DNA of 40,471 bases from a virus: IMG/VR virus record IMGVR_UViG_3300010885_056921, positions 1 to 40,471 of that record; one strand, 5' to 3'. The notes under the pieces were generated by a model. It was not told the DNA's origin. It searched no databases and saw only the letters and a program-made list of their open reading frames with translations. Positions 5,180-40,276 of the stretch are shown one piece after another. The number at the start of each line of letters is the position of its first letter. Positions within the stretch are counted from its first letter, which is position 1. The position numbers and the translations under genes are program-made.

Positions 5180-7549
5180 CTATTGAGCATTTGATAATCC
5201 TGAATCTCCTGAAGTTCCTGCTGAGTTTGTAGCATACGCTGCAACTTTCCACTGCACTGAAGTTTTTGGTAAAGTAAAAGTTCCAGAATTAGTACTAGAG
5301 AAAGGACCTTTTGTTGTTTGTATAGTTGAAAAATTATTGGACGATCCATAAGCGTGTAAATAATATGTTATTGGGGCTGTCCCAGTTGAAGCTGACCAAG
5401 ATGCAGAATAATTCCAAGAACTTGAATTTGCACCAATATAAGAAAGAGTAGGTGTTCCTGGTATACTTGGCGCAATTGATGATGGCGTATATGTCCAATA
5501 TGCATATAGAGATATATTTGAATTTGGATAATAAACATTTCCTCTTCCGCCAGCAAAGTTGCCCGAGCCAGATGAACCAGTGTACCATCCATTAAAAGTA
5601 TAATTAGATACAGAACTAGGTGATGGCAAAGTTACATAGCCTCCTTGCGTTGTTGTTACTGATCCAGATGAGCTATCTATTGAATCTACATAAGTAACAG
5701 TATAGCTTGGTGCAGCACCTGTAATAACTTGAGCTGGCCCTACCCAAGCACCGTATGTATTGTTGTTTCTTGAACGAATAAAATAATATATTTGCTTAGA
5801 ATAACCTTGATAAATAGTTTGTGATGTTCCAGTTATTCCTGAATACTGTGCTGAAACAGCTCCCGATGGAGTTGCAGAAATAGTTTGTGAATATATTTCA
5901 TAAGATGAAACATTGTTTGGAAAATTTTGCCCGCCGTAAGTATCTGATGGTGCGGCATTCCAAGATATTACTGCATTATCTGCAGAAGCATAACCTGAAG
6001 CATTTGTGGGAGAAACTGGAGTTCCTGCATAAAAAAATGGAGGACTTGAAGGTGCAGGACTTGAATTTGCTTGAGCAGATCCACTAGCATTTGTTCCTGT
6101 AGATATTCCATAATAATATCCATTTGTTGGGATATCGTAACGAACAGTACTAGAGGATGTACTAATAGTATCATAATAGCTATAGCTTCCCGAAACAGTT
6201 CCGCTTCTATAAATATCTAAACGCATACTTGTTGCACGTAAAGAAGAAGACTGTATGTACCCTTGTGTTGTAAAGTTTCCGACAGAAGAAGAAAATGTTG
6301 GTGTTGCTGGTACTACAGCAACTACTGGACCAACACTAGACGGACTTGCAATATTACTTAACCCACTTGAATTACCAGCATTAACATAAGCTGAAATTGT
6401 ATTGTTATATGAAGAATTATAAGTAAACGTATAATCTACATAATTTGTTGTATATGTACCTGCTTGATTTGATGTTATTGATGTTACAGGAAAAGTATTG
6501 TAATAAATTGTATAATTATAATATGTTGGACTATTTGACCATGTTCCAAAATTTAATCTTAAAGTAGTACCCGATGTTATTTGTCCAGAAAATACGTTAC
6601 CCAATGTATCTGTCCAATACGGATAATTTTGAACAACTGGTACCCCTGGGGAGACTTTTGCTGTTGCTGCATATTTTAAAATACCTTGAGTAGTCCCCGC
6701 ATAATCTGAACCACTGTTATACTGTGTTTCTACAGCATAAATATAATAGCCATTATCTGTTGAAGTTGATGTATATGTAGATGTTGTAGTCCAAGTTGTA
6801 CCGTTATTATTCCATAAAGGCGCTGAACCTGTAATAGGAGTTGCATATGTTTTTATACTTTCAGGGGTTGAATATAAAGTTGTGCTTTTATACCAACTAA
6901 CATTATATCTTGTACTATCTGGAAAATACGCCTCTGTTCCATTCCATGTTGCGGTATATGTTGCTGTTGAATTTACATTAAATGTTGTTGCTGCAGAACC
7001 CATGCTTGCAGAAATATTTAAGGGAGGATTTGTAATAACTATTACTCTTCCATATCCATTACCTACAGAATCAATGCTGGGTATACTTTGAGTATTATTA
7101 TCTGTTATTTGAAAATCTAAATACTTTCCCGCCCAATTTGAACTATACCCATTAAATGATGGTGTTGTTAAATTGATTAATATTCCACTACTGTATGTTC
7201 CTGATGAAATTATTGTGTTAGACCCACCCGTTGATGCTGAACATGATTGAACTTGATATGCATATGAAATTCCAGTAAAACCAGAATTGTTCCATGTCCC
7301 GTTTTGTCCATATAAAGAGCTTCCAATTCTTACATAATTATTAACATAAACATTGTTTCCTGCTAAATCCGTTGAAAAAAATGGAGAAAAAGTTGAAATT
7401 GGTCCAGCTTTTGGCCAAAATAATTGCCAAATATTTGCTGAAGTTTTAACAAATATTTTTTTAGCAATTTGCCAAGTACTTGAAGAAGTTTTAACAAAAA
7501 ATTGTTGAGCTGGAACCCAAGTGTTTGCTGTTTTTTTTATAAATAACAT
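5180..7549 (-). CDS. Tail/adhesin protein with Ig-like domains and an InlB-type repeat
   Basis: 789 residues, very rich in Ser, Thr, Tyr, Gly and Asn. The N-terminus has a threefold short repeat (IKKTANTWVPAQQFF, VKTSSSTWQIAKKIF, VKTSANIWQ), a pattern common at the start of phage tail-tip accessory proteins. The bulk is a series of beta-sandwich (Ig/FN3-like) domains separated by proline-rich linkers. Around residues 650-690 is a Listeria-Bacteroides/InlB B-repeat: YTFNGWYTG ... ISLYAYWT. Such proteins decorate the tail tip and may contact cell-surface polymers. It starts right after the stop of the 958-residue tail protein, with only a weak ribosome site, so translation is probably coupled. 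Confidence 0.82.
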   Translation of the reverse strand: MLFIKKTANTWVPAQQFFVKTSSSTWQIAKKIFVKTSANIWQLFWPKAGPISTFSPFFSTDLAGNNVYVNNYVRIGSSLYGQNGTWNNSGFTGISYAYQVQSCSASTGGSNTIISSGTYSSGILINLTTPSFNGYSSNWAGKYLDFQITDNNTQSIPSIDSVGNGYGRVIVITNPPLNISASMGSAATTFNVNSTATYTATWNGTEAYFPDSTRYNVSWYKSTTLYSTPESIKTYATPITGSAPLWNNNGTTWTTTSTYTSTSTDNGYYIYAVETQYNSGSDYAGTTQGILKYAATAKVSPGVPVVQNYPYWTDTLGNVFSGQITSGTTLRLNFGTWSNSPTYYNYTIYYNTFPVTSITSNQAGTYTTNYVDYTFTYNSSYNNTISAYVNAGNSSGLSNIASPSSVGPVVAVVPATPTFSSSVGNFTTQGYIQSSSLRATSMRLDIYRSGTVSGSYSYYDTISTSSSTVRYDIPTNGYYYGISTGTNASGSAQANSSPAPSSPPFFYAGTPVSPTNASGYASADNAVISWNAAPSDTYGGQNFPNNVSSYEIYSQTISATPSGAVSAQYSGITGTSQTIYQGYSKQIYYFIRSRNNNTYGAWVGPAQVITGAAPSYTVTYVDSIDSSSGSVTTTQGGYVTLPSPSSVSNYTFNGWYTGSSGSGNFAGGRGNVYYPNSNISLYAYWTYTPSSIAPSIPGTPTLSYIGANSSSWNYSASWSASTGTAPITYYLHAYGSSNNFSTIQTTKGPFSSTNSGTFTLPKTSVQWKVAAYATNSAGTSGDSGLSNAQ

Positions 7550-28369: not shown

Positions 28370-28711
28370 TTATTTTATAATATTGCTATTGATTTGGATG
28401 ACTTTTTTAACATCCGCCCCTTCTGGTTTATAAACTTTAACTTCCGCAATTGGTGGTGGCACCCCTTGACTCCCGTCATTTATGTTATTTACATAGGGGG
28501 TTTGTATATGAGAATCTGGTAAAACGTTAGGGGAAAAGGATGAGTTGTGTGATGCTAGGCCTCCTGTTATAAAGCCCATTACGGGGTATATTAGCCCCGT
28601 AAAGCTCTTTTGAAACCCCGTTGCTGCCCACATTCCATATGAGCTTATAAGGGCAATACTTAACTGTTTAGCGTCTGAAATATTAAATTTAAAATGATGC
28701 TTTAATTTCAT
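28370..28711 (-). CDS. Holin-like membrane protein
   Basis: 113 residues. Two hydrophobic stretches lie in the first 55 residues (AKQLSIALISSYGMWAATGF and LIYPVMGFITGGLA) with a basic N-terminus, and the C-terminal half is hydrophilic and proline-rich. It directly follows the endolysin gene (ATGA overlap, AAAGGGA ribosome site). A small two-segment membrane protein beside an endolysin is the usual basis for a holin call. The long polar tail is unusual for a holin but not disqualifying. Confidence 0.72.
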   Translation of the reverse strand: MKLKHHFKFNISDAKQLSIALISSYGMWAATGFQKSFTGLIYPVMGFITGGLASHNSSFSPNVLPDSHIQTPYVNNINDGSQGVPPPIAEVKVYKPEGADVKKVIQINSNIIK

Positions 28712-29565
28712 AGTGATCCCTTTAAATTATCATAGACAATCTGTGGAACTGCCCCACCTTTTACTATAATTCCTAATTTTTTATCAAATTTTACAAGTCC
28801 CGCTTTTGTTTGAGAGTTCATAGTTCCCGTTGCATATTTAATATCAAGCATTTTATTTTTAACAAGAGCTTTTTGTATTGTCAATACAGCATCATTAGTT
28901 TGTCCTATTTCAAATGAATTTTGAGATGAAGGAAATGGTGGCGCAATAAATACCGTAGGTGTTGGAGAAGGATTTGGATTTGCTGTCCCAGCTGCTGTTC
29001 CTGTGTGTAATATCCCAGTCGCTCCTGCAACGGCTGCACCTGCTCCACCAACTACTGCTGTTGCTTTTTTACTTCCAGATACACCAATTGTTGGTTGAAA
29101 AGTTACTGGATATTTTGGCCTAACAATTGCCATTATAAAAAGATAATTTCTGTGTAATCGCCAACAACCTTCTTGTGTTGGATCATTTACATTGCCAGTA
29201 TTAAAGCCAATTGTAGTTAATCCTCCAGGTGATGCGGCTTCAATTAATTCAACATGATCTACGGTGCCGTCACCATTCCAGTCAAAAAATGCCAGGTCTC
29301 CTGGTTGAGCTTGCATCTTGTTAACAACCATACCTTGTCTTTGAAACCATGGCAAAGCTGCAGGATTATAAGAAAAACCTTTAGGAGTTTGTGCAGCGAT
29401 TAAATGTGATAGGCCAACTTGTGCAAAGCACCATGATATTCCCATTGCACAATATGGAGCGTTTGGAACACCATACCAAATTCCATATGGATTTTCATTT
29501 GAAGCACCTTCATGAAAACCAATTTGCGTTCTAGCTACATTTAATACGTCTAATGCTGTAGCCAT
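28708..29565 (-). CDS. Endolysin: CHAP amidase/peptidase with peptidoglycan-binding domain
   Basis: 285 residues. The N-terminal CHAP domain shows the catalytic Cys39 in NAPYCAMGISW, His104 in TVDHVELIE, and TGN at 123-125; GDLAFFDWNGDGTVDH is a typical family segment. After a Thr/Pro/Ala linker (about 165-215) comes a PG_binding_1-like domain (NDAVLTIQKALVKNKM, TKAGLVKFDKKLGI). It would cut peptidoglycan at lysis; alternatively it may act in virion entry, since it lies among head genes. AAGAAGG precedes the ATG; the portal stop is two bases before the gene. Confidence 0.9.
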   Translation of the reverse strand: MATALDVLNVARTQIGFHEGASNENPYGIWYGVPNAPYCAMGISWCFAQVGLSHLIAAQTPKGFSYNPAALPWFQRQGMVVNKMQAQPGDLAFFDWNGDGTVDHVELIEAASPGGLTTIGFNTGNVNDPTQEGCWRLHRNYLFIMAIVRPKYPVTFQPTIGVSGSKKATAVVGGAGAAVAGATGILHTGTAAGTANPNPSPTPTVFIAPPFPSSQNSFEIGQTNDAVLTIQKALVKNKMLDIKYATGTMNSQTKAGLVKFDKKLGIIVKGGAVPQIVYDNLKGSL

Positions 29566-31645: not shown

Positions 31646-32305
31646 TTAATTTATTTCTTTAATTTTAACAATAAAATCTTTAAAATTACCCATATATTTC
31701 ATAGAACCTATATGGCTACAGGTTTTAGATGGGTCAATAAATACTTTAAATCCGCCCTTAATAAGTTTTTGACAAACTAGTACATCTTCAGAAATGATAT
31801 CTCCATCTTGAATTTTAACTTCAAAAACCCATCTGCGATCTTTTTCATTATGTATATAAGAATCTGAATTATCCCATAAATGTTTTACAGCTTCTTTAGA
31901 CATATAAAGAAAACCTGTTCCCACACTTTCTACACTAATTAATCCATCTTCATCTTCTTCAAGATCTTCAATTTTACATTTAATATTATATGATTCTTGA
32001 GTAGCGCTTTTTTTAATGACGGGTAATCCAAAAACATCTTTACCAGAAGTAACTACATCTATTGCCCATTCAGGATTCCATTCCATATCAGAATCAATCC
32101 AAAGGATGCCATCAAAATTGTTATCTACTGCAATTCCCACCAAATCATTTCTAGAGCGTTGTATTAATGCATCATAAGATAAAAATACTGGTTTAAAAAT
32201 TATTTCTTTTTCTAATCCGAGTAAGATTGTATTAATAAGAGAATTTGTGTACCAAGCATCTAGCCTTCCGTCATAAGAAGGAGTAGCAATTAAAACTGTT
32301 TTCAT
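31646..32305 (-). CDS. Anp1-like glycosyltransferase (GT-A fold)
   Basis: 219 residues. The N-terminus VLIATPSYDGRLDAWYTNSL, the RSRNDLVGIAV segment near 51-61 and the DxD metal site WIDSDMEW (D71-S-D73) match phage and bacterial glycosyltransferases of the Anp1-like GT-A group. A later GTGFLYMSKEAV and ISEDVLVCQKL fit the acceptor side of that fold. It starts just after the fibre gene stop. It may add sugars to the fibre, to other virion proteins or to the host surface; the target is not shown. Confidence 0.87.
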   Translation of the reverse strand: MKTVLIATPSYDGRLDAWYTNSLINTILLGLEKEIIFKPVFLSYDALIQRSRNDLVGIAVDNNFDGILWIDSDMEWNPEWAIDVVTSGKDVFGLPVIKKSATQESYNIKCKIEDLEEDEDGLISVESVGTGFLYMSKEAVKHLWDNSDSYIHNEKDRRWVFEVKIQDGDIISEDVLVCQKLIKGGFKVFIDPSKTCSHIGSMKYMGNFKDFIVKIKEIN

Positions 32306-35300
32306 TTATTTAATCTTTTCTTCTAATTCAGCTATTTTTGCTGAAAGCTCTTGTATTGCTTTAACTAATATAGGTATAAGTTTACCAGGTGTTGCTTCTA
32401 GACGATCTTCATTGTCATCTAAAACTAATTGTAGCCATTCTTTTGCCTCAAATTTATTTTCTGTTTCAAGCAAATCTTGAGCAATAAATCCAGCTTCTAA
32501 TTGACCTACTTTTGCTCCATCCCGCATATTCCATTCAAATTTAACAGGTTTTAAATCATTTATAAATTCAAGTCCGACGGGGATTGATTCAATATTTGTT
32601 TTATCTCTTTTATCAGAAAGAGCAGTAATAGATGTAACTTGAGCGCGAATTGTTGCTATAGCCGAATTACCTAAAGTTATTTCATTAGAAACTGTTGCAG
32701 AAGAAGGTTGTGCATTAAACCCAATAACTGTATTATTTTGTCCAGTAGTTAAATTATAGCCAGCATTATATCCAATAGAAGTGTTGTTATTTCCTGTTGT
32801 GTTAGATTGAAGAGCAGCATATCCAATAGCAGTGTTGCTAGTTCCTATTGTGTTAGATTGAAGAGCACTACTTCCAATAGCAGTGTTGCTAGCTCCTGTT
32901 GTGTTATAATAAAGAGAATTATATCCAATAGCAATGTTGTAAGTTGCTGTTGTGTTAGAATAAAGAGATTGATATCCAAAAGCAACGTTGGAATATCCTA
33001 TTGTATTGGCTTGAAGAGACTGATATCCAATAGCAGTGTTGTAACCTCCTGTTGTGTTATTGTAAAGAGCACCATATCCAATAGCAGTGTTGCTAGTTCC
33101 TGTTGTGTTAGAATAAAGAGCAGCACTTCCAATAGCAGTGTTGGAAGATCCTATTGAGTTAGTATAAAGGGCATTATATCCAATAGCACTGTTGTAATTT
33201 CCTGTTGTGTTACTGTAAAGAGATTGAAATCCAATAGCAGCGTTGTAATATCCTGTTGTGTTAGAATAAAGAGCATTATATCCAATAGCAATGTTGTTAT
33301 CTACTTTATTAAAATAAAGAGCATTATATCCAATAGCAGTGTTGTTGTTTCCTGTTGTGTTAGAAGTAAGAGCATTATATCCAATAGCAGTGTTTTGAGT
33401 TCCTGTTGTGTTTTGACTAAGAGCAGCAACTCCAACAGCAGTGTTGTAACCTCCTATTGTGTTAGAATTAAGAGCAACATATCCAATAGCAGCGTTGTAA
33501 TTTCCTGTTGTGTTAGAACTAAGAGCACTCAGTCCAATAGCAGTGTTGTAAGTTCCTGTTGTGTTAGAAGTAAGAGACTGATATCCAATAGCAGTGTTGT
33601 TAGTTCCTATTGTGTTATTGTAAAGAGATTGATAGCCAATAGCGGTGTTGCTAGCTCCTCCTGTGTTAAAATTAAGAGACTGATATCCAATAGCAGTGTT
33701 GGAATATCCTGTTGTATTGGCTTGAAGAGCATTATATCCAATAGCAGTGCTGCTATTTCCTATTGTGTTAGAAGTAAGACTATTATATCCAATAGCAGTG
33801 TTGTTAGTTCCTGTTGTGTTAGAAGTAAGAGCACTACTTCCAATAGCCGTATTGTAAACTCCTGTTGTGTTAGTATAAAGAGCATTATATCCAATAGCAG
33901 TGTTAGTATCTACTTTATTATTATAAAGAGACTGATATCCAATAGCAGTGTTGTTATTTCCTGTTGTGTTAGATTGAAGAGCATACGATCCAATAGCCGT
34001 ATTGTAAATTCCTATTGTGTTAGAAGTAAGAGCAGCAACTCCAACAGCAGTGTTGTAACCTCCTGTTGTGTTAGAATAAAGAGTACTACTTCCAACAGCA
34101 GTGTTGCTAGCTCCTATTGTGTTAGAATAAAGAGCAGGATATCCAACAGCAGTGTTGCTAGCTCCTATTGTGTTAGAGCTAAGAGCAGTATGTCCAATAG
34201 CAGTGTTGAAACCTCCTATTGTGTTAGAACCAAGAGCACTACTTCCAATAGCAGTGTTGCTAGTTCCTGATATATTGGTTTGAAGAGCACTATTTCCAAT
34301 AGCCGTATTGTAAACTCCTGTTGTGTTAGAATTAAGAGCAAAATATCCAATAGCAGTGTTAGAATCTACTTTATTAGAATAAAGAGCAGCATATCCAATA
34401 GCAGTGTTGTTATTTCCTGTTGTGTTAGTATAAAGAGCATACGGTCCAATAGCAATGTTGGTAGTTCCTGTTGTGTTAGCAAAAAGAGCAGCATATCCCA
34501 TAGCAGTATTTAAATTCCCTGTTGTGGTATTTTGAAGAGTAGCATATCCAATAGCAGTGTTGTAATTTGTCATGTTATTCTGAAGAGCAGAATATCCAAT
34601 AGCAGTGTTGCTAGTTCCTCCTGCGTTAGCATAAAGAGTACTACTTCCAATAGCAGTGTTGTAAGTTCCTATTGTGTTATTGTAAAGAGATTGATAGCCA
34701 ATAGCGGTGTTGTTAGTTCCTGTTGTAAGATATAAGAGAGCATTAGTACCACCATAAGTATTGGTTCCAGATACATTGACTCCCGCACCTGTTATACCTT
34801 GAAAACCCTGTATACCTTGTACTCCTTGAATACCTTGTGTGCTACCAGCTGTTCCTTGAACACCCTGCGTACCTTGTGCTTGGTTAAATCCTCCGCCTTG
34901 CAAACCTTGTAATCCTTGAACACCACGTACACCTGTAAGAGTAATTGTCCAAGAAGTTGCGGTTGTTGTACCTAGGTTATAATCTGCTGCAATTGCAAAA
35001 GATGTGCCACCAGTAATTGTTACAATGCCTTCAAATAAATTTGCTGCAGTATTAATTGCACGAACACGGTCACCTGTAGCAAATGCTCCTTGAGCATTAG
35101 TAGTTAAAGTTATTGTTCCAGTAGACGCTGGTGTTGCTGAAGTACTAGATGTGACTCCAGAGTAACCAGTCCCTTGAAATCCTTGCAAGCCTTGTAAACC
35201 TTGAACGCCTTGTACGCCCTGTAATCCTTGTGCTTGTTGATAACCAAATCCTTGCAAACCTTGTAAACCTTGTACGCCCTGTAATCCTTGTGTACCTTGA

Positions 35301-36835
35301 ATTCCTTGAACACCCTGTGTGCCCTGTGCGCCCTGAACACCCTGTAATCCTTGTGCTTGTTGATAACCAAATCCTTGCAAGCCTTGTAAACCTTGTAATC
35401 CTTGAATGCCTTGTACACCTTGTGTGCCTTGGGCTCCTGATGTTCCAGAAAGATTTACTTGCCATCCCGCATATGATCCAGTTGAACCAGTATAACTAGT
35501 TTGAGTAAAAGTTAAACTACCAGTAGTTGTATAAGAAGTATATCCAGTTACTGTTCCATATTGAATACTTGTACCATGAGTTAAAATAATTGATTGACCT
35601 GTAGTATATGCTAATCCAGCAGATACGCTTATTGTTTGAGTTCCGCTTGAAGCTACTGTAAATGTATCACCTGTTGATGTTAAATATATGCTTCCACTAT
35701 ATCCTTGTAATCCTTGAATTCCCGCCGAACCTGTTGTTCCTTGTACGCTACCAGCTATTCCTTGAACGCCCTGTATACCTTGTGCTTGATTAAATCCTCC
35801 GCCTTGCAAACCTTGTAAGCCTTGTAATCCTTGAGTTCCTTGAACACCCTGTGTACCTTGTGCTCCCTGAATACCTTGTGCGCCATTTATTCCAACAGTT
35901 CCATTAGTTCCCGAAGAACCTTGAATACCTTGAATACCTTGCAAACCTTGTGCTTGATTAAATCCTCCGCCTTGCAAACCTTGTAAGCCTTGTAATCCTT
36001 GAGTTCCTTGAATACCTTGTGCGCCATTTGCTCCTGGAGATCCTGCAGCACCTGCAAGATTTACATACCAAGGATTTGGAACAGATCCATAAGTTCCAGA
36101 TCCAATAAAACTATTTTTAACAAATATTAAATTATTTGTTGAAGCAATTCCATTATATGAAACAACTGTTCCAGATTGTACATTGCTGACATCATATGCA
36201 ATTGTAATTGTTTGTCCTGGAGTATATGCTAGTCCAGTTCCAACAGTTATTGTTTGTTGTTGTTGATTTGATGATAATGTAAATGAAGTAGGGGAAGTTG
36301 TTGCATATAAATCTCCACTTGCGCCAGCAGATCCTGAAGTTCCCGTCGCACCTTGTAAACCTTGAAAACCTTGAATGCCCTGAGTTCCTGATCCTTGAAT
36401 TCCCTGTACACCCTGTATGCCTTGAACACCTGATCCCTGAATTCCTTGCAAACCTTGTGTACCTTGTGCACCTTGCGTTCCTGATCCTTGTGAGCCTTGT
36501 GTACCTTGCAAACCTTGTACGCCTTGAATACCTTGAATTCCTTGTGCACCCTGTGTTCCTGTTCCTTGAACACCTTGTGTGCCTTGCAAACCTTGTAATC
36601 CTTGAGTACCTTGTAGCCCTTGAATTCCCTGTACACCTTGTGTACCTTGCAATAAAGTTGCAGGAGCCCACGAGCGGACACCTGATGTAGTAGAAGTTAA
36701 TACTTGATTTGCGGTTGATGGTACGCCTAAATCTGGCTCTGTTTCAGATAAACCAATATAGTTATATCTGTCTGCATTTTGTGCAGCTTGTAAAGAAGGG
36801 GTTTTTTTTACTTTACCTGATAAATTTTTAGCCAT
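32306..36835 (-). CDS. Giant tail fibre: collagen-like tracts, YadA-like repeats, S74 chaperone
   Basis: 1509 residues. An N-terminal virion-attachment part is followed by Gly-x-Gln collagen-like tracts at about 63-165, 268-377, 465-557 and 635-682, separated by small beta domains. Residues 709-1384 are forty tandem copies of a 17-residue unit (consensus [17 protein letters not shown]; four copies have 16), resembling YadA head left-handed rolls. The end is a peptidase S74 intramolecular chaperone with the Ser-Lys dyad S1407/K1412 (SDKRDKTNI) and a final coiled coil ([17 protein letters not shown]). The protein should trimerise, then cut off the chaperone near S1407. Likely a receptor-binding fibre. 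Confidence 0.9.
32684..34711 (-). repeat. Forty 51-base tandem coding repeats
   Basis: Each unit encodes 17 residues starting Asn-(Thr)-Ala-Ile-Gly. Units 3, 7, 16 and 28 lack one codon; units 7, 16 and 28 share the rare ending NKVD, giving a higher-order period of 9-12 units. DNA identity between units is high, so unequal recombination can change copy number. Antisense frames through this block are artefacts of the repeat. Confidence 0.92.
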
Positions 36836-37205
36836 TAGATGTTTCCAATATACTTAATACAATTTGGAGAGTGCTATTAGCGCTTGCATAAGCGTAAACT
36901 TGATCTCCTGTCATAACAACAAGTTTTCCAGATGTGACAGAAACAGAATCATTACCTGGTACTGAAAAACCTTGTATTAAAGAAATATTGGTAGGAGTAG
37001 TACTTGCGGCTGTAGCTGTTGCTATATTATAATAAGAAAATGTTGCTTGTGCTGCAGAAGAAGTTATATTGCTAATTTGAGCCATAAGAATGATAGATGT
37101 AAAACCAGTTGGGGCGGTGTATAAAAGCTGACCATAAGCACTACTACCAATAGTAGTCAAAGTTGTTGTAAACGTTTTAAATGTGTTTAATTGTGTTACT
37201 GCCAT
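36828..37205 (-). CDS. Small beta-rich virion protein
   Basis: 125 residues, Ala/Thr/Ser-rich: [40 protein letters not shown], then [20 protein letters not shown] and a final strand [13 protein letters not shown]. This is the shape of small phage structural jelly rolls that close or trim fibres, often found beside fibre genes. GAGGGG lies upstream of the ATG, and the end overlaps the giant fibre start, so it is probably made together with it. Exact role unknown. Confidence 0.72.
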
Positions 37206-37210
37206 TTTCT

Positions 37211-38677
37211 TTACCCCTCAAGCGCCAGTATATATGGTGTCATTATAGCAAATAGACTTTTATTAAAGGCTGTACCACTAATTGTACCCGAAGCTTGATT
37301 AATTACTAAATTGGGACCAATTTTGAAGTTTCCTTTTTGGTCTGTGCTGGTAAAGAATATTTGCCCTCCGCCACTTGTTACGGTTTCTGCATTTCCCGTA
37401 ATAAATTGTCCGCCTAATTGTGGCAAAGATGTTGCTGGATCTATTCCATATCCGCAATATTCAAAGGTATGCCCTGAAGCAACAATTCTACTATTTTGAT
37501 AAAATTTTGCGGTAGTACCAGATGAAATTGTTGTTGTTATATTTGATGTTAAGTTAATTGTTGCTCGGCCACCAGATAGCTGACTTGCAATACTATCTAT
37601 AGTGTAGTATGTTGTTCCATTATCAAATGTTACAACATTGTTTGCATATGGAGTTTGGCTTAAACCACTAATTACAACCGTTGAATCATTTATATTAATT
37701 GTATTTGCTGCTGTTCCTGAATATAATAAAGAACTTACTCCTGCTGCTTTTAAACCAATATTTCCAAAAGATGAATCTGATCCAATAAGGGAACAAAATC
37801 CTCCAGATTCGCAAAGAACTCCTACATCTGTAAAAATTGTATAAATAGAAACTAATTGTGCGTATCCTTGATTAACAATATGAATACCAGTTCCACCATA
37901 ATTAATTTGAGTATACTGACCAGCAACCATTGATTTATTTCCAGTTACTTTACTACCATCAATATACATTCCTTTGCCGCCAGTTGAAATTGATGAACAA
38001 TTATATACATAAGGGCTTCTTGTAATAGCCCCCGCAGAACCATTTGGATTATAAGATACTGCAGAAGCACCTGATGTATGACCTTTAAATGTAACTTCAG
38101 AAATGTATACACCATTGTTAAGATAAAAAATGTCAGAAGTTGTAGTTGATGGTCTAATAGTTACTGATCTTAAGCTATCACCAATAACTGAAACACCTGT
38201 AGGAATTGTAACTGGATTTACTTCTGTATACTCCCCGCTTTTTACAAAAACAGTTGTGCCATCAGTTGCAATTGCAAGTGCTGCTTTAATTGTTAAAAAT
38301 GCTGATCCAATTGTTGTTCCATCATTTCCATCATTTCCAGTTTTAGCAACATATAAAACTTTTGTTGTAGCATTTGCTACACCCGAAGATCCCTGAATTC
38401 CTTGCACACCTTGTATGCCTTGAACACTATATCCTTGTATACCTTGAACACCTTGAACACTATATCCTTGTATACCTTGAAAACCTTGTACACCTTGAAC
38501 GCCTTGTATACCTTGTAAACCTTTTGGTCCTTTATTTAACGATAGATATGCATCAAGTTCTGATGCCAAACGAAAAATATCTCTAGGAACGTCTGGGGAG
38601 TCCGTGTAGGCGGGATAATTAAACTGTGCTCCAGAAACGGTTTGAAGATTACTAGTATAACTGTATGTAGGACTCAT
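37211..38677 (-). CDS. Tail fibre / depolymerase-like protein with collagen-like tract and beta helix
   Basis: 488 residues from ATG 38677; a TTG six codons earlier would lie in the promoter. Residues about 47-97 are Gly-x-x repeats ([16 protein letters not shown]). From about 105 on is a right-handed parallel beta helix of the pectate-lyase type: LYVAKTGNDGNDGTTIGSAF, VFVKSGEYTEVNPVTIP, GVYISEVTFKGHTSG, GKGMYIDGSKVTGNKS. Such helices bind or cut polysaccharides; no catalytic residues could be assigned. The same collagen-like motif occurs in the giant fibre, suggesting shared origin. Its mRNA is probably almost leaderless. Confidence 0.85.
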   Translation of the reverse strand: MSPTYSYTSNLQTVSGAQFNYPAYTDSPDVPRDIFRLASELDAYLSLNKGPKGLQGIQGVQGVQGFQGIQGYSVQGVQGIQGYSVQGIQGVQGIQGSSGVANATTKVLYVAKTGNDGNDGTTIGSAFLTIKAALAIATDGTTVFVKSGEYTEVNPVTIPTGVSVIGDSLRSVTIRPSTTTSDIFYLNNGVYISEVTFKGHTSGASAVSYNPNGSAGAITRSPYVYNCSSISTGGKGMYIDGSKVTGNKSMVAGQYTQINYGGTGIHIVNQGYAQLVSIYTIFTDVGVLCESGGFCSLIGSDSSFGNIGLKAAGVSSLLYSGTAANTININDSTVVISGLSQTPYANNVVTFDNGTTYYTIDSIASQLSGGRATINLTSNITTTISSGTTAKFYQNSRIVASGHTFEYCGYGIDPATSLPQLGGQFITGNAETVTSGGGQIFFTSTDQKGNFKIGPNLVINQASGTISGTAFNKSLFAIMTPYILALEG

Positions 38678-38685
38678 ATGGTATA

Positions 38686-38694
38686 AGTATACCA
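38686..38694 (-). promoter_or_regulatory. Extended -10 promoter before the beta-helix fibre
   Basis: Minus strand TGG followed by TATACT (38686-38691). The ATG lies eight bases after the box, leaving at most a base or two of leader. No ribosome site is present. No suitable -35 box. Confidence 0.6.
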
Positions 38695-38724
38695 AAATAT
38701 TAAATAAAAGCGTTTATTCAATAT

Positions 38725-39279
38725 TTAAAGTTTTTTTAAATTTTCATTTATAGCTGTTTTATACTGTTCTGGTATGTCTTGTTTAAGAAGTTTTTCAAAA
38801 ATATCTTTTGATTCATCCCGCCGACCCAGCCACCAAGCTGACACACCTTTTTCAAACTCAAGGCAATATTCTCCATAGTATTCAACATCAACAGGAAGAG
38901 GTTCAATTCTGGATGTATGCATCAATCCTAATTCTGCAAACAAATAACATTGTTGCCATTTTTGAGATTTTTCATAATACCTGGAAAGTACAAAGTATGC
39001 TTCTGGTCTTTTTGGCAAATATTGAATGGCTTGAAATAAAGCATTTTTTAATGTATGTTCCCGATTGCTTTGATCGTCCATACAATATGACATTCTAATT
39101 AATGAAGCATAAACTAAATTTGGATGCGTATCATATCCATATTCTGCAGTTCTTAAATAAAATGACATTGCGGCTGCAGTTTGACCAATTAATTCATACT
39201 CTCTTGCAATTTTAAAATTATGTTCTGGATTAAGCATATCTGAAGATGCTAATTCAATTAACTCTTCAATTGTTGCCAT
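38725..39279 (-). CDS. TPR-like helical protein
   Basis: 184 residues, all helical by composition, with repeated helix pairs: HNFKIAREYELIGQTAAAMS, RPEAYFVLSRYYEKSQKWQQ and KGVSAWWLGRRDESKDIFEK. Spacing and residues (Trp/Tyr, Ala, Gly) fit tetratricopeptide repeats. In phages and bacteria such repeats often occur behind or next to glycosyltransferase domains, and here it lies between a glycosidase-like gene and fibres, so a role in fibre glycan modification or assembly is possible. AGGAGG precedes the ATG; the start overlaps the upstream stop by 14 bases. Confidence 0.8.
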   Translation of the reverse strand: MATIEELIELASSDMLNPEHNFKIAREYELIGQTAAAMSFYLRTAEYGYDTHPNLVYASLIRMSYCMDDQSNREHTLKNALFQAIQYLPKRPEAYFVLSRYYEKSQKWQQCYLFAELGLMHTSRIEPLPVDVEYYGEYCLEFEKGVSAWWLGRRDESKDIFEKLLKQDIPEQYKTAINENLKKL

Positions 39280-40276
39280 ATGATATTGCCTCCTGTATCA
39301 TTTCTTCTATTAATGTATTTGTAATTTTAAGTACAAAAGCTGCATTATCGCTAAACCCAAATGTTAATAATAAATTATCATCTAGTACCGCCGCACCAGA
39401 ACAAAATTCAACACATGCATCTAAAAATGAAAACTTTTCTGGTGATAAACCAATTAAATTATAATTTTCATCAAAAACACAAAGTCTATGTCGGTATAAT
39501 CCATTTTTTTGATTAAGGTAGTTATTCCATAATCCAACTTCATGGGTTACAGAAAGATAATAATTATTCCAACGAACTAACTGAGTCCCGCCTCTTTGAT
39601 CTGCTGGAACATCAAATGTATTTGTTAGTGACACCTGCTCACATCGGGCGGGAAGTTCTGGATAAGTTCTTACAATTTCTGTAGGTGCAGTCCATTTAAC
39701 AAAATGATATGGTTTGTCTAATATTGGGTACCAATTTTTTTCACAATATGATTCATCAGTTCCTGGGGCTGGAATTCTTAAACGAGATATTTCTTTGGCT
39801 GTCCATTTATCTTTATTTATTTCAATTTCAGATAATTCCATACGACCTTGACCGTTTTCAGTAGTATCTCTACGAACTCCTGCTAAATAATATTTGCCTT
39901 CCCATTTAACTAAACGTCCATCTTCTAATCCAACAAATTCCCAAAGGGGCGGGACGTCAAGAGCACTAGTATCAATTAAACAATAATCAGTCATATTTAA
40001 ATTTTTATCTAATCTACATAAATAATTATATGTTCTAAGATTCATATCTTTTTCTGGATGCAAATATGCTAAAGGTCCCCAAGGTGAAGGAAATTTCATA
40101 TTTTTTTCAGCATGATAAAGCGAATAATTAATATGTCTAAGATTGACAAGTATGTCGCCATCATCATCTATAAAAATGGCGGGATTTGTTAAGCCAGTTC
40201 CTTTAACTAATCCCTCTTTAATAACAATAGGGACTAATTTACCCCCAGCATTTATTGCTCTTTGAACTAAATTCAT
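39266..40276 (-). CDS. Five-bladed beta-propeller glycosidase-like protein (GH130/GH43-type)
   Basis: 336 residues. GLTNPAIFIDDDGDILVNLR near 28-47, then GLEDGRLVKWEGKYYLAGVR near 116-135, and later RGGTQLVRWNNYYLSVTH and FCSGAAVLDDNLLLTFGF, are blade signatures of GH43/62/130 propellers. In GH130 the related E-D-P-R holds the catalytic Asp; here it is E118-D119-G-R, so activity may be altered or the protein may be a non-catalytic binder. It could process mannose-type glycans on the host surface or on phage fibres. The ATG is the seventh base after TATAAT, with no ribosome site. Confidence 0.83.
   Translation of the reverse strand: MNLVQRAINAGGKLVPIVIKEGLVKGTGLTNPAIFIDDDGDILVNLRHINYSLYHAEKNMKFPSPWGPLAYLHPEKDMNLRTYNYLCRLDKNLNMTDYCLIDTSALDVPPLWEFVGLEDGRLVKWEGKYYLAGVRRDTTENGQGRMELSEIEINKDKWTAKEISRLRIPAPGTDESYCEKNWYPILDKPYHFVKWTAPTEIVRTYPELPARCEQVSLTNTFDVPADQRGGTQLVRWNNYYLSVTHEVGLWNNYLNQKNGLYRHRLCVFDENYNLIGLSPEKFSFLDACVEFCSGAAVLDDNLLLTFGFSDNAAFVLKITNTLIEEMIQEAISYGNN

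Follow-up and report, generated by a model that had tools for sequence, protein, structure and literature searches.

A propeller-TPR gene pair among phage fibre genes as a candidate glycan-building module

What might enzymes of sugar chemistry be doing among the fibre genes of a phage? The question is raised by a freshwater phage, the virus record IMGVR_UViG_3300010885_056921, whose 40,471 bases are called the window here and to which all coordinates of the phage under study refer. Between positions 31646 and 40276, on the minus strand, lie genes for a propeller-shaped putative enzyme, a protein resembling tetratricopeptide repeat (TPR) proteins, two fibres and a glycosyltransferase (GT). A first-pass annotation had taken these for a glycan module associated with the fibres. 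The six-gene region is real, an additional gene for a 125-residue protein being present, and the association of glycan genes with fibre genes is borne out among relatives.

We give an even chance to the reading that the region encodes a cytoplasmic glycan-building module of the phage, the likeliest acceptor of which would be its own fibre or another virion protein; we infer its activity, sugar and acceptor alike. In this model, the propeller with its GH130/GT108 fold would run in the direction of synthesis, transferring a glycosyl group from a sugar-1-phosphate or a nucleotide sugar with inversion and forming a beta linkage. The TPR protein, whose gene overlaps that of the propeller, would hold this enzyme and others at the acceptor. 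It would be an interchangeable adaptor, bare in the window phage, because relatives attach methyltransferases or glycosyltransferases to the same TPR domain. A fibre with collagen, NTAIG and S74 parts would receive a sugar from the GT-A enzyme encoded directly behind it, and the propeller-TPR unit would lengthen or vary the chain, with O-methylation by FkbM as the next step in many relatives.

More tentatively, and somewhat short of an even chance, we propose that a virus-specific family of the GH130/GT108 fold, all but missing from cellular genomes, and its dedicated TPR adaptor form a modular glycan assembly line of aquatic phages, in which the adaptor stays constant and the fused enzyme (methyltransferases, oxygenase-like domains and glycosyltransferases of five or more kinds) is swapped, giving each phage's fibres their own sugar coat. 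Phage glycan islands and the propeller fold are already known. The literature searched, in which most subscription papers were not included, yielded no account of the propeller-TPR pair; the virus-specific propeller family and the exchangeable TPR adaptor likewise appear to be undescribed there. Aquatic phage genomes hold many unexplained glycan genes beside their fibres, which are usually read as modifiers of the host surface or of DNA. A propeller-TPR core present at hundreds of loci provides a handle on such islands, as it combines a GH130-type sugar site with an adaptor for exchangeable enzymes. An isolated carrier, the cyanophage S-SCSM2R, makes the acceptor question accessible; if the acceptor is the fibre, host recognition by these phages would depend on sugars that are invisible to sequence-based receptor prediction.

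The propeller-TPR pair and its distribution

The propeller gene (39266-40276, minus strand; 336 amino acids) encodes a predicted five-bladed beta-propeller with a GH130/GT108-like fold. It is followed by the gene for the TPR-like putative adaptor (38725-39279, minus strand; 184 amino acids), a bare, short form that matches phrog_13126 (GT and TPR) with an E-value of 6e-9. The genes overlap by 14 nucleotides (39266-39279), the propeller stop lying over the TPR start, and a Shine-Dalgarno sequence, AGGAGG (39269-39274; gatacaGGAGGcaatatcatATG on the minus strand), sits within the propeller gene a few bases 5' of the TPR ATG. Together, the overlap and the internal Shine-Dalgarno sequence suggest translational coupling of the two proteins.

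A first scan for relatives returned 80 loci, and later scans that started from the cyanophage propeller and from a divergent relative returned at least 600 stretches each. Loci were collapsed at 95% identity, leaving 141 non-redundant viral loci with room for a downstream gene. A TPR gene lay directly 3' of the propeller in 80/80 first-scan loci, and a TPR-domain gene followed on the same strand in 127 of the 141 non-redundant ones; gene overlaps among relatives were mostly 4-41 nucleotides. When the search was begun from the TPR protein, which reached closer relatives, a propeller was found upstream in all 46 non-redundant loci with room for it. The distance matrices of the two proteins correlated at 0.81, compared with a permutation maximum of 0.08. 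Co-occurrence in other genomes, which the first-pass annotation had named as a check, is strong for this pair and only partial for the GT and fibre genes, as detailed below. The core unit is the propeller with its TPR protein; GT and fibre make up another unit that can be separated from it. A constant partnership between this GT and the propeller was rejected, the GT family occurring in only 9/141 loci.

By itself, the window TPR protein falls below the Pfam TPR cut-off (19.3 versus 25.7 bits); several relatives (L061, L077, L082 and L083) exceed the cut-off for TPR_17. About 34 of the 127 TPR proteins are bare, the window's included, and the rest carry additional N- or C-terminal segments. 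FkbM is fused to TPR in 20 proteins. Among 70 other TPR proteins, the fused domains were GT25 (16), GT2 (15), DUF6445 (14), GT17 (9), Methyltransf_24 (9), FkbM (7), GT7C (7) and WavE (4), and oxygenase-like domains also occur as fusion partners. Pfam tallies were used here in place of a clustering of the fused domains, in which multi-domain chains joined everything into a single cluster. FkbM is also found as a gene of its own directly behind TPR in 11 loci. The 14 loci that lack a TPR gene include three of a divergent type, described below for the phage DSL-LC01; in several of the others, recognisable glycan genes follow instead, such as the genes for a NeuD-like acetyltransferase and a UDP-GlcNAc-3-dehydrogenase-like protein behind the propeller of L253.

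Propeller relatives number in the hundreds in viral contigs, including aquatic phage fragments. In a scan of 84,980 species-level cellular genomes, made with patterns from close relatives, five contigs were matched. All five carry phage-like neighbour genes, and one, L085, is syntenic with the window, its portal and endolysin genes included; a cellular origin of the propeller was therefore rejected. The pair is carried by the isolate S-SCSM2R, which grows on Synechococcus WH7803 and whose TPR protein has a DUF6445 part, and by the metagenome-assembled cyanophage DSL-LC02, in which it lies within a fibre cluster, with TPR-FkbM-radical SAM. Two further contigs were recorded. The Actinomycetia phage DSL-LC01 (L084:7451-8332) encodes a divergent propeller with 23% identity that retains E-D-P-K, has no TPR partner and adjoins a methyltransferase gene; viral contigs yielded just two relatives of it (L265 and L266). 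In L088, a T4-like contig binned as Rhodobacteraceae, three consecutive radical-SAM-like genes lie on the opposite strand beside the pair (29-2977).

Fibres, glycosyltransferase and the acceptor

Fibre 2 (32306-36835, minus strand; 1509 amino acids) matches Pfam collagen at 110.8 bits and Peptidase_S74 at 43.5 bits. Its N-terminal part is an interrupted collagen-like region of 82 Gly-X-Y triplets and its C-terminus is the Peptidase_S74 intramolecular chaperone; between them lie 37 units of about 17 residues with the pattern xNTAIGYxALxSNTTG. By eye, these repeats resemble the beta-roll repeats of YadA heads. The GT gene (31646-32305, minus strand; 219 amino acids; phrog_1574, E-value 1.4e-17) abuts fibre 2 with zero gap. 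Its product scores 17.3 bits against Pfam Anp1 (PF03452, GT62), below the cut-off of 28.8. The AlphaFold2 model (predicted local distance difference test score, pLDDT, 91.4) has a GT-A fold with STIV A197 (Z 18.3), Mnn9 (15.2), ColGalT1 (14.9) and mimivirus R699 (14.8) as nearest folds, slightly above generic GT-A folds at about 13; LH3 is also among the nearer folds, although the match lies in its accessory domain. The GT-A fold and a DxD motif (D71-x-D73, present in 18/18 sequences, with E173-D174 and H198 also conserved) are shared with A197, the GT62/Anp1-like enzymes and the ColGalT1 type, whereas identity to A197, Mnn9 and ColGalT1 is low. The Anp1-like label of the first-pass annotation agrees with the predicted fold while remaining below the Pfam threshold, as does the GH130 assignment of the propeller.

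Relatives of the GT adjoin NTAIG-type S74 fibres in 6 of 11 non-redundant loci, including all six of the closer ones, and close relatives stand beside such fibres in phages with differing neighbour genes. L273 and L274 combine fibre, GT, FkbM, TPR and propeller. In L285 (1-10645), one of a group of near-identical contigs (L282-L285 and L287), a remoter relative (47%) is found two genes ahead of an NTAIG-type fibre. For the propeller, collagen-like genes made up 93/921 neighbours (10.1%) within five genes and 9/434 (2.1%) farther away.

Several points weigh against the fibre as acceptor. The collagen enrichment (Fisher p 1.5e-8) was calculated on loci that are not phylogenetically independent, and a collagen-like gene lies within five genes of the propeller in only 63/141 loci, so fibre linkage is not universal. 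The local statistic for the GT-fibre pair gives a Fisher p of 0.10 and draws on few independent lineages. In S-SCSM2R, the pair adjoins nrdA/nrdB and small genes. Phage fibre regions are gene-exchange hotspots, and a neighbourhood alone cannot name the acceptor. Finally, N-x-S/T sequons in fibre 2 do not exceed what its composition yields (40, with shuffled sequences averaging 33.5 and reaching 48 at most). The first-pass annotation had proposed the N-T-T-G and S-N-T-T repeats as acceptor surfaces. The repeats exist, but the sequon count lends that idea no support, and the fixed places of Asn and Thr in a regular 17-residue unit suggest a structural role.

The chemistry of a putative sugar on the fibre can be narrowed. 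None of the 82 triplets has Lys at X or Y, and glycosylation of collagen hydroxylysine on fibre 2, as in ColGalT1-type enzymes, was ruled out despite the fold nearness of ColGalT1, LH3 and R699. The triplets are instead rich in Thr and Gln; across 89 neighbouring collagen-like proteins, X is Thr in 28% and Y is Gln in 68%. O-linked sugars on Thr or Ser of the fibre are a possibility.

Transmembrane segments were predicted in 0/143 propellers and 0/127 TPR proteins, and only 3 of 1068 neighbours have four or more. As multi-pass membrane proteins are nearly absent around the pair, there is no sign of a complete surface pathway with lipid-linked intermediates, which favours an acceptor in the cytoplasm, for instance a fibre under assembly. 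These counts bear most directly on the proposal that the enzymes alter the O-chain, capsule or wall sugars of the infected cell in order to exclude competing phages or help release, which we consider less likely but a serious rival. It is the published reading for GTs mixed with tail fibres in the pelagimyophage host-recognition cluster, whose authors infer modification of the host O-chain (PMC7029224). That cluster, known from pelagimyophages and cyanomyophages, shares tail fibres and GTs in a variable island and collagen repeats with the loci studied here; the propeller-TPR pair is not described there. TPR fusions to WavE and GT25, families named for lipopolysaccharide synthesis, and the location of NTAIG-type loci in hypervariable regions also fit a host acceptor. 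With multi-pass proteins so scarce, however, no flippase, polymerase or Gtr-like set is evident, and the pair occurs both in Synechococcus phages and in a phage with a Streptomyces-like portal. A single lipopolysaccharide acceptor would not fit both, though host sugars differ in any case.

For the virion as acceptor, a precedent is found in mycobacteriophages, whose GTs glycosylate virion proteins (Freeman 2023, as cited in PMC12619734 and PMC11652166). Phage-encoded GTs are the shared element. According to the citing passages, the proteins concerned are capsid and tail tube, and those passages mention neither a propeller nor a TPR adaptor.

It is quite improbable that the enzymes instead decorate modified bases of the phage genome. 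This is a common role of phage GTs, and a GT of DSL-LC02 was so read by its authors (PMC10611076). Against it, base-modification enzymes were not noticed in the neighbourhood of the pair; the usual company is FkbM, GT2, GT17, GT25 and fibres, and the GT stands beside a fibre in unrelated phages.

Fold and sugar site of the propeller

The propeller scores 13.2 bits against Pfam GH130 (PF04041), under the gathering score of 26. A search of its profile against PDB by sequence did not find GH130, and direct comparison with a GH130 alignment gave short local matches only, so that the assignment is carried by fold comparison. An AlphaFold2 model built from 34 relatives (pLDDT 83.3, predicted template modelling score 0.86) was compared with PDB using Foldseek, and ranks 1-14 were all GH130 or GT108. 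By VIA, Z was 22.9 to RaMP1 (5ay9), 22.6 to Teth514_1788 (9gph), 20.0 to Uhgb_MS and about 16 to GT108, for which 6q50, 6q4x and 6q4w were matched; the first GH43, the next fold, gave 17.4. At the level of the fold, the model supports a five-bladed GH130/GT108-like propeller. Among viral predicted structures, the nearest are proteins of phages and pithoviruses, and the fold also occurs in giant-virus proteins annotated as fucosyltransferase, WcaK-like or LicD/FKTN.

Conservation was read from an alignment of 129 relatives, and equivalences to BT3780 were taken from PDB alignments of GH130 relatives and the numbering in PMC4599007. N31, R47 (128/129), E118, D119, K180, R228, H245, Y261 and D310 are kept. 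Seven of these map to sugar-site residues of BT3780: N31, R47, E118, D119, K180, Y261 and D310 correspond to Asn74, Arg89, Glu141, Asp142, Lys199, Tyr302 and Asp363. In BT3780, Asp142 is catalytic, Lys199 determines beta-1,2 specificity, and the residues of the -1 and +1 sites are numbered (PMC4599007). The first-pass annotation had taken E-D-G-R (E118-R121) in place of E-D-P-R as a sign of changed activity. That claim was not sustained, because position 120 varies freely (A 87, C 20, G 10, V 5, S 4, P 3) while E118 and the Asp that is catalytic in BT3780 are unchanged throughout, which makes E-D-G-R ordinary for this family.

The propeller could also be a non-catalytic virion or receptor-binding part, lectin-like and resembling an enzyme in shape only. 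We think this no more probable than DNA modification. Its genes do lie among fibres, and it shows weak local similarity to Photorhabdus PLL lectins. The PLL match covers about 43 residues only, however, and the lectin assignment was rejected; Asp119, like the rest of the GH130 sugar site, is conserved throughout the 129 sequences, the most distant included, and the propeller is co-inherited with TPR-enzyme fusions.

GH130 hydrolases are defined by a glutamate pair, Glu227/Glu268 of BT3780 (PMC4599007). In the propeller, these are replaced by T196 (T, S or C in relatives) and R228 (129/129), and H245 occupies a position that is His in phosphorylases (Y-H-G) and Asn in hydrolases. Phosphorylases hold phosphate with three basic residues. 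The Arg of their motif L-L-H-R corresponds to T196, with K194 two residues earlier and R228 as an additional basic residue; this nucleophile-side mapping comes from a gapless motif alignment at about 15% identity, a limit that counts against our reading. The invariant R228 and H245 are placed on the nucleophile and leaving-group side. From these residues, an inverting enzyme resembling phosphorylases or transferases is predicted in preference to a glycosidase. Around the propeller are biosynthetic genes for glycosyltransferases, FkbM methyltransferases, a sugar dehydrogenase and an acetyltransferase.

Least probable of all is that the propeller hydrolyses host or virion mannosides as GH130 beta-1,2-mannosidases do: the fold is shared, the +1/-1 sugar-binding residues are kept and K180 takes the place of Lys199, but trimming is unlikely because both hydrolase glutamates are absent and the surroundings are biosynthetic, and the propeller has neither signal peptide nor transmembrane segment. 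Of the build-and-trim idea in the first-pass annotation, the building half is in keeping with the genetic context. In its proposed comparison with the GH130 active site, the sugar-site residues and catalytic Asp persist and the glutamate pair does not.

Measured against known enzymes, the propeller shares with GH130 (RaMP1, Teth514_1788, BfMGP and BT3780) the five-bladed fold, with predicted Z values of 19-23, and the mapped sugar site. It differs in identity (about 11-16%), in its sub-threshold Pfam score, in the replacement of the EDPR Pro by Ala, Cys or Gly in its family, in having Arg228 at the position of the hydrolase Glu268, which is Gly in phosphorylases, and in being encoded together with a TPR adaptor in viruses. 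With the GT108 MTP enzymes of Leishmania (GDP-mannose transferase/phosphorylase) and the mannoside synthase Uhgb_MS it has a common fold (6q50, 6q4x and 9erg matched), and the synthetic direction is likewise predicted from the model. GT108 itself is a lower structural match, the propeller lies outside that sequence family as far as tested, and viral operon context and host differ.

Other features of the window

The genes of the region are read in one direction, as the first-pass annotation pointed out. This carries little weight because nearly every major open reading frame of the window is on the same strand. Behind the GT gene follow a small conserved gene and the genes for the portal and a CHAP endolysin (Pfam and PHROG matches). 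The portal is 54% identical to portals of Streptomyces phages, such as Wakanda, from which an actinobacterial host is inferred. The endolysin gene (28708-29565) has an unusual position between the portal and the prohead protease and capsid genes, and the order is the same in L085.

Fibre 1 (37211-38695, minus strand; 494 amino acids) matches the PHROG tail fibre phrog_17885 (E-value 7.9e-83), with a sub-threshold Pfam collagen score (22.4 versus 27.2). A brief collagen-like stretch precedes its tail-fibre domains. Translation more probably starts from the ATG near 38677 (MSPTYSYTSNLQ), which agrees with the relative in L085. Just 5' of that ATG is a near-palindrome, GGTATACTTATACC (38675-38695), present as a single copy in the window. 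Between the two fibre genes lies the gene for the 125-residue protein absent from the first-pass list (36828-37205, minus strand; phrog_1276, E-value 3.4e-11). A homologue with 46% identity likewise sits between two fibre genes in L020, and the protein has a weak, sub-threshold match to a Pfam GH5 C-terminal domain.

PADLOC returned zero matches, upon which a defence reading was dropped, and NCBIfam returned zero matches for three window proteins. Elsewhere in the window, positions 5180-7549 encode a 789-residue protein in which a Listeria-Bacteroides repeat domain (Flg_new) exceeds the Pfam cut-off, and its neighbour is a 958-residue protein with a weak fn3 match.

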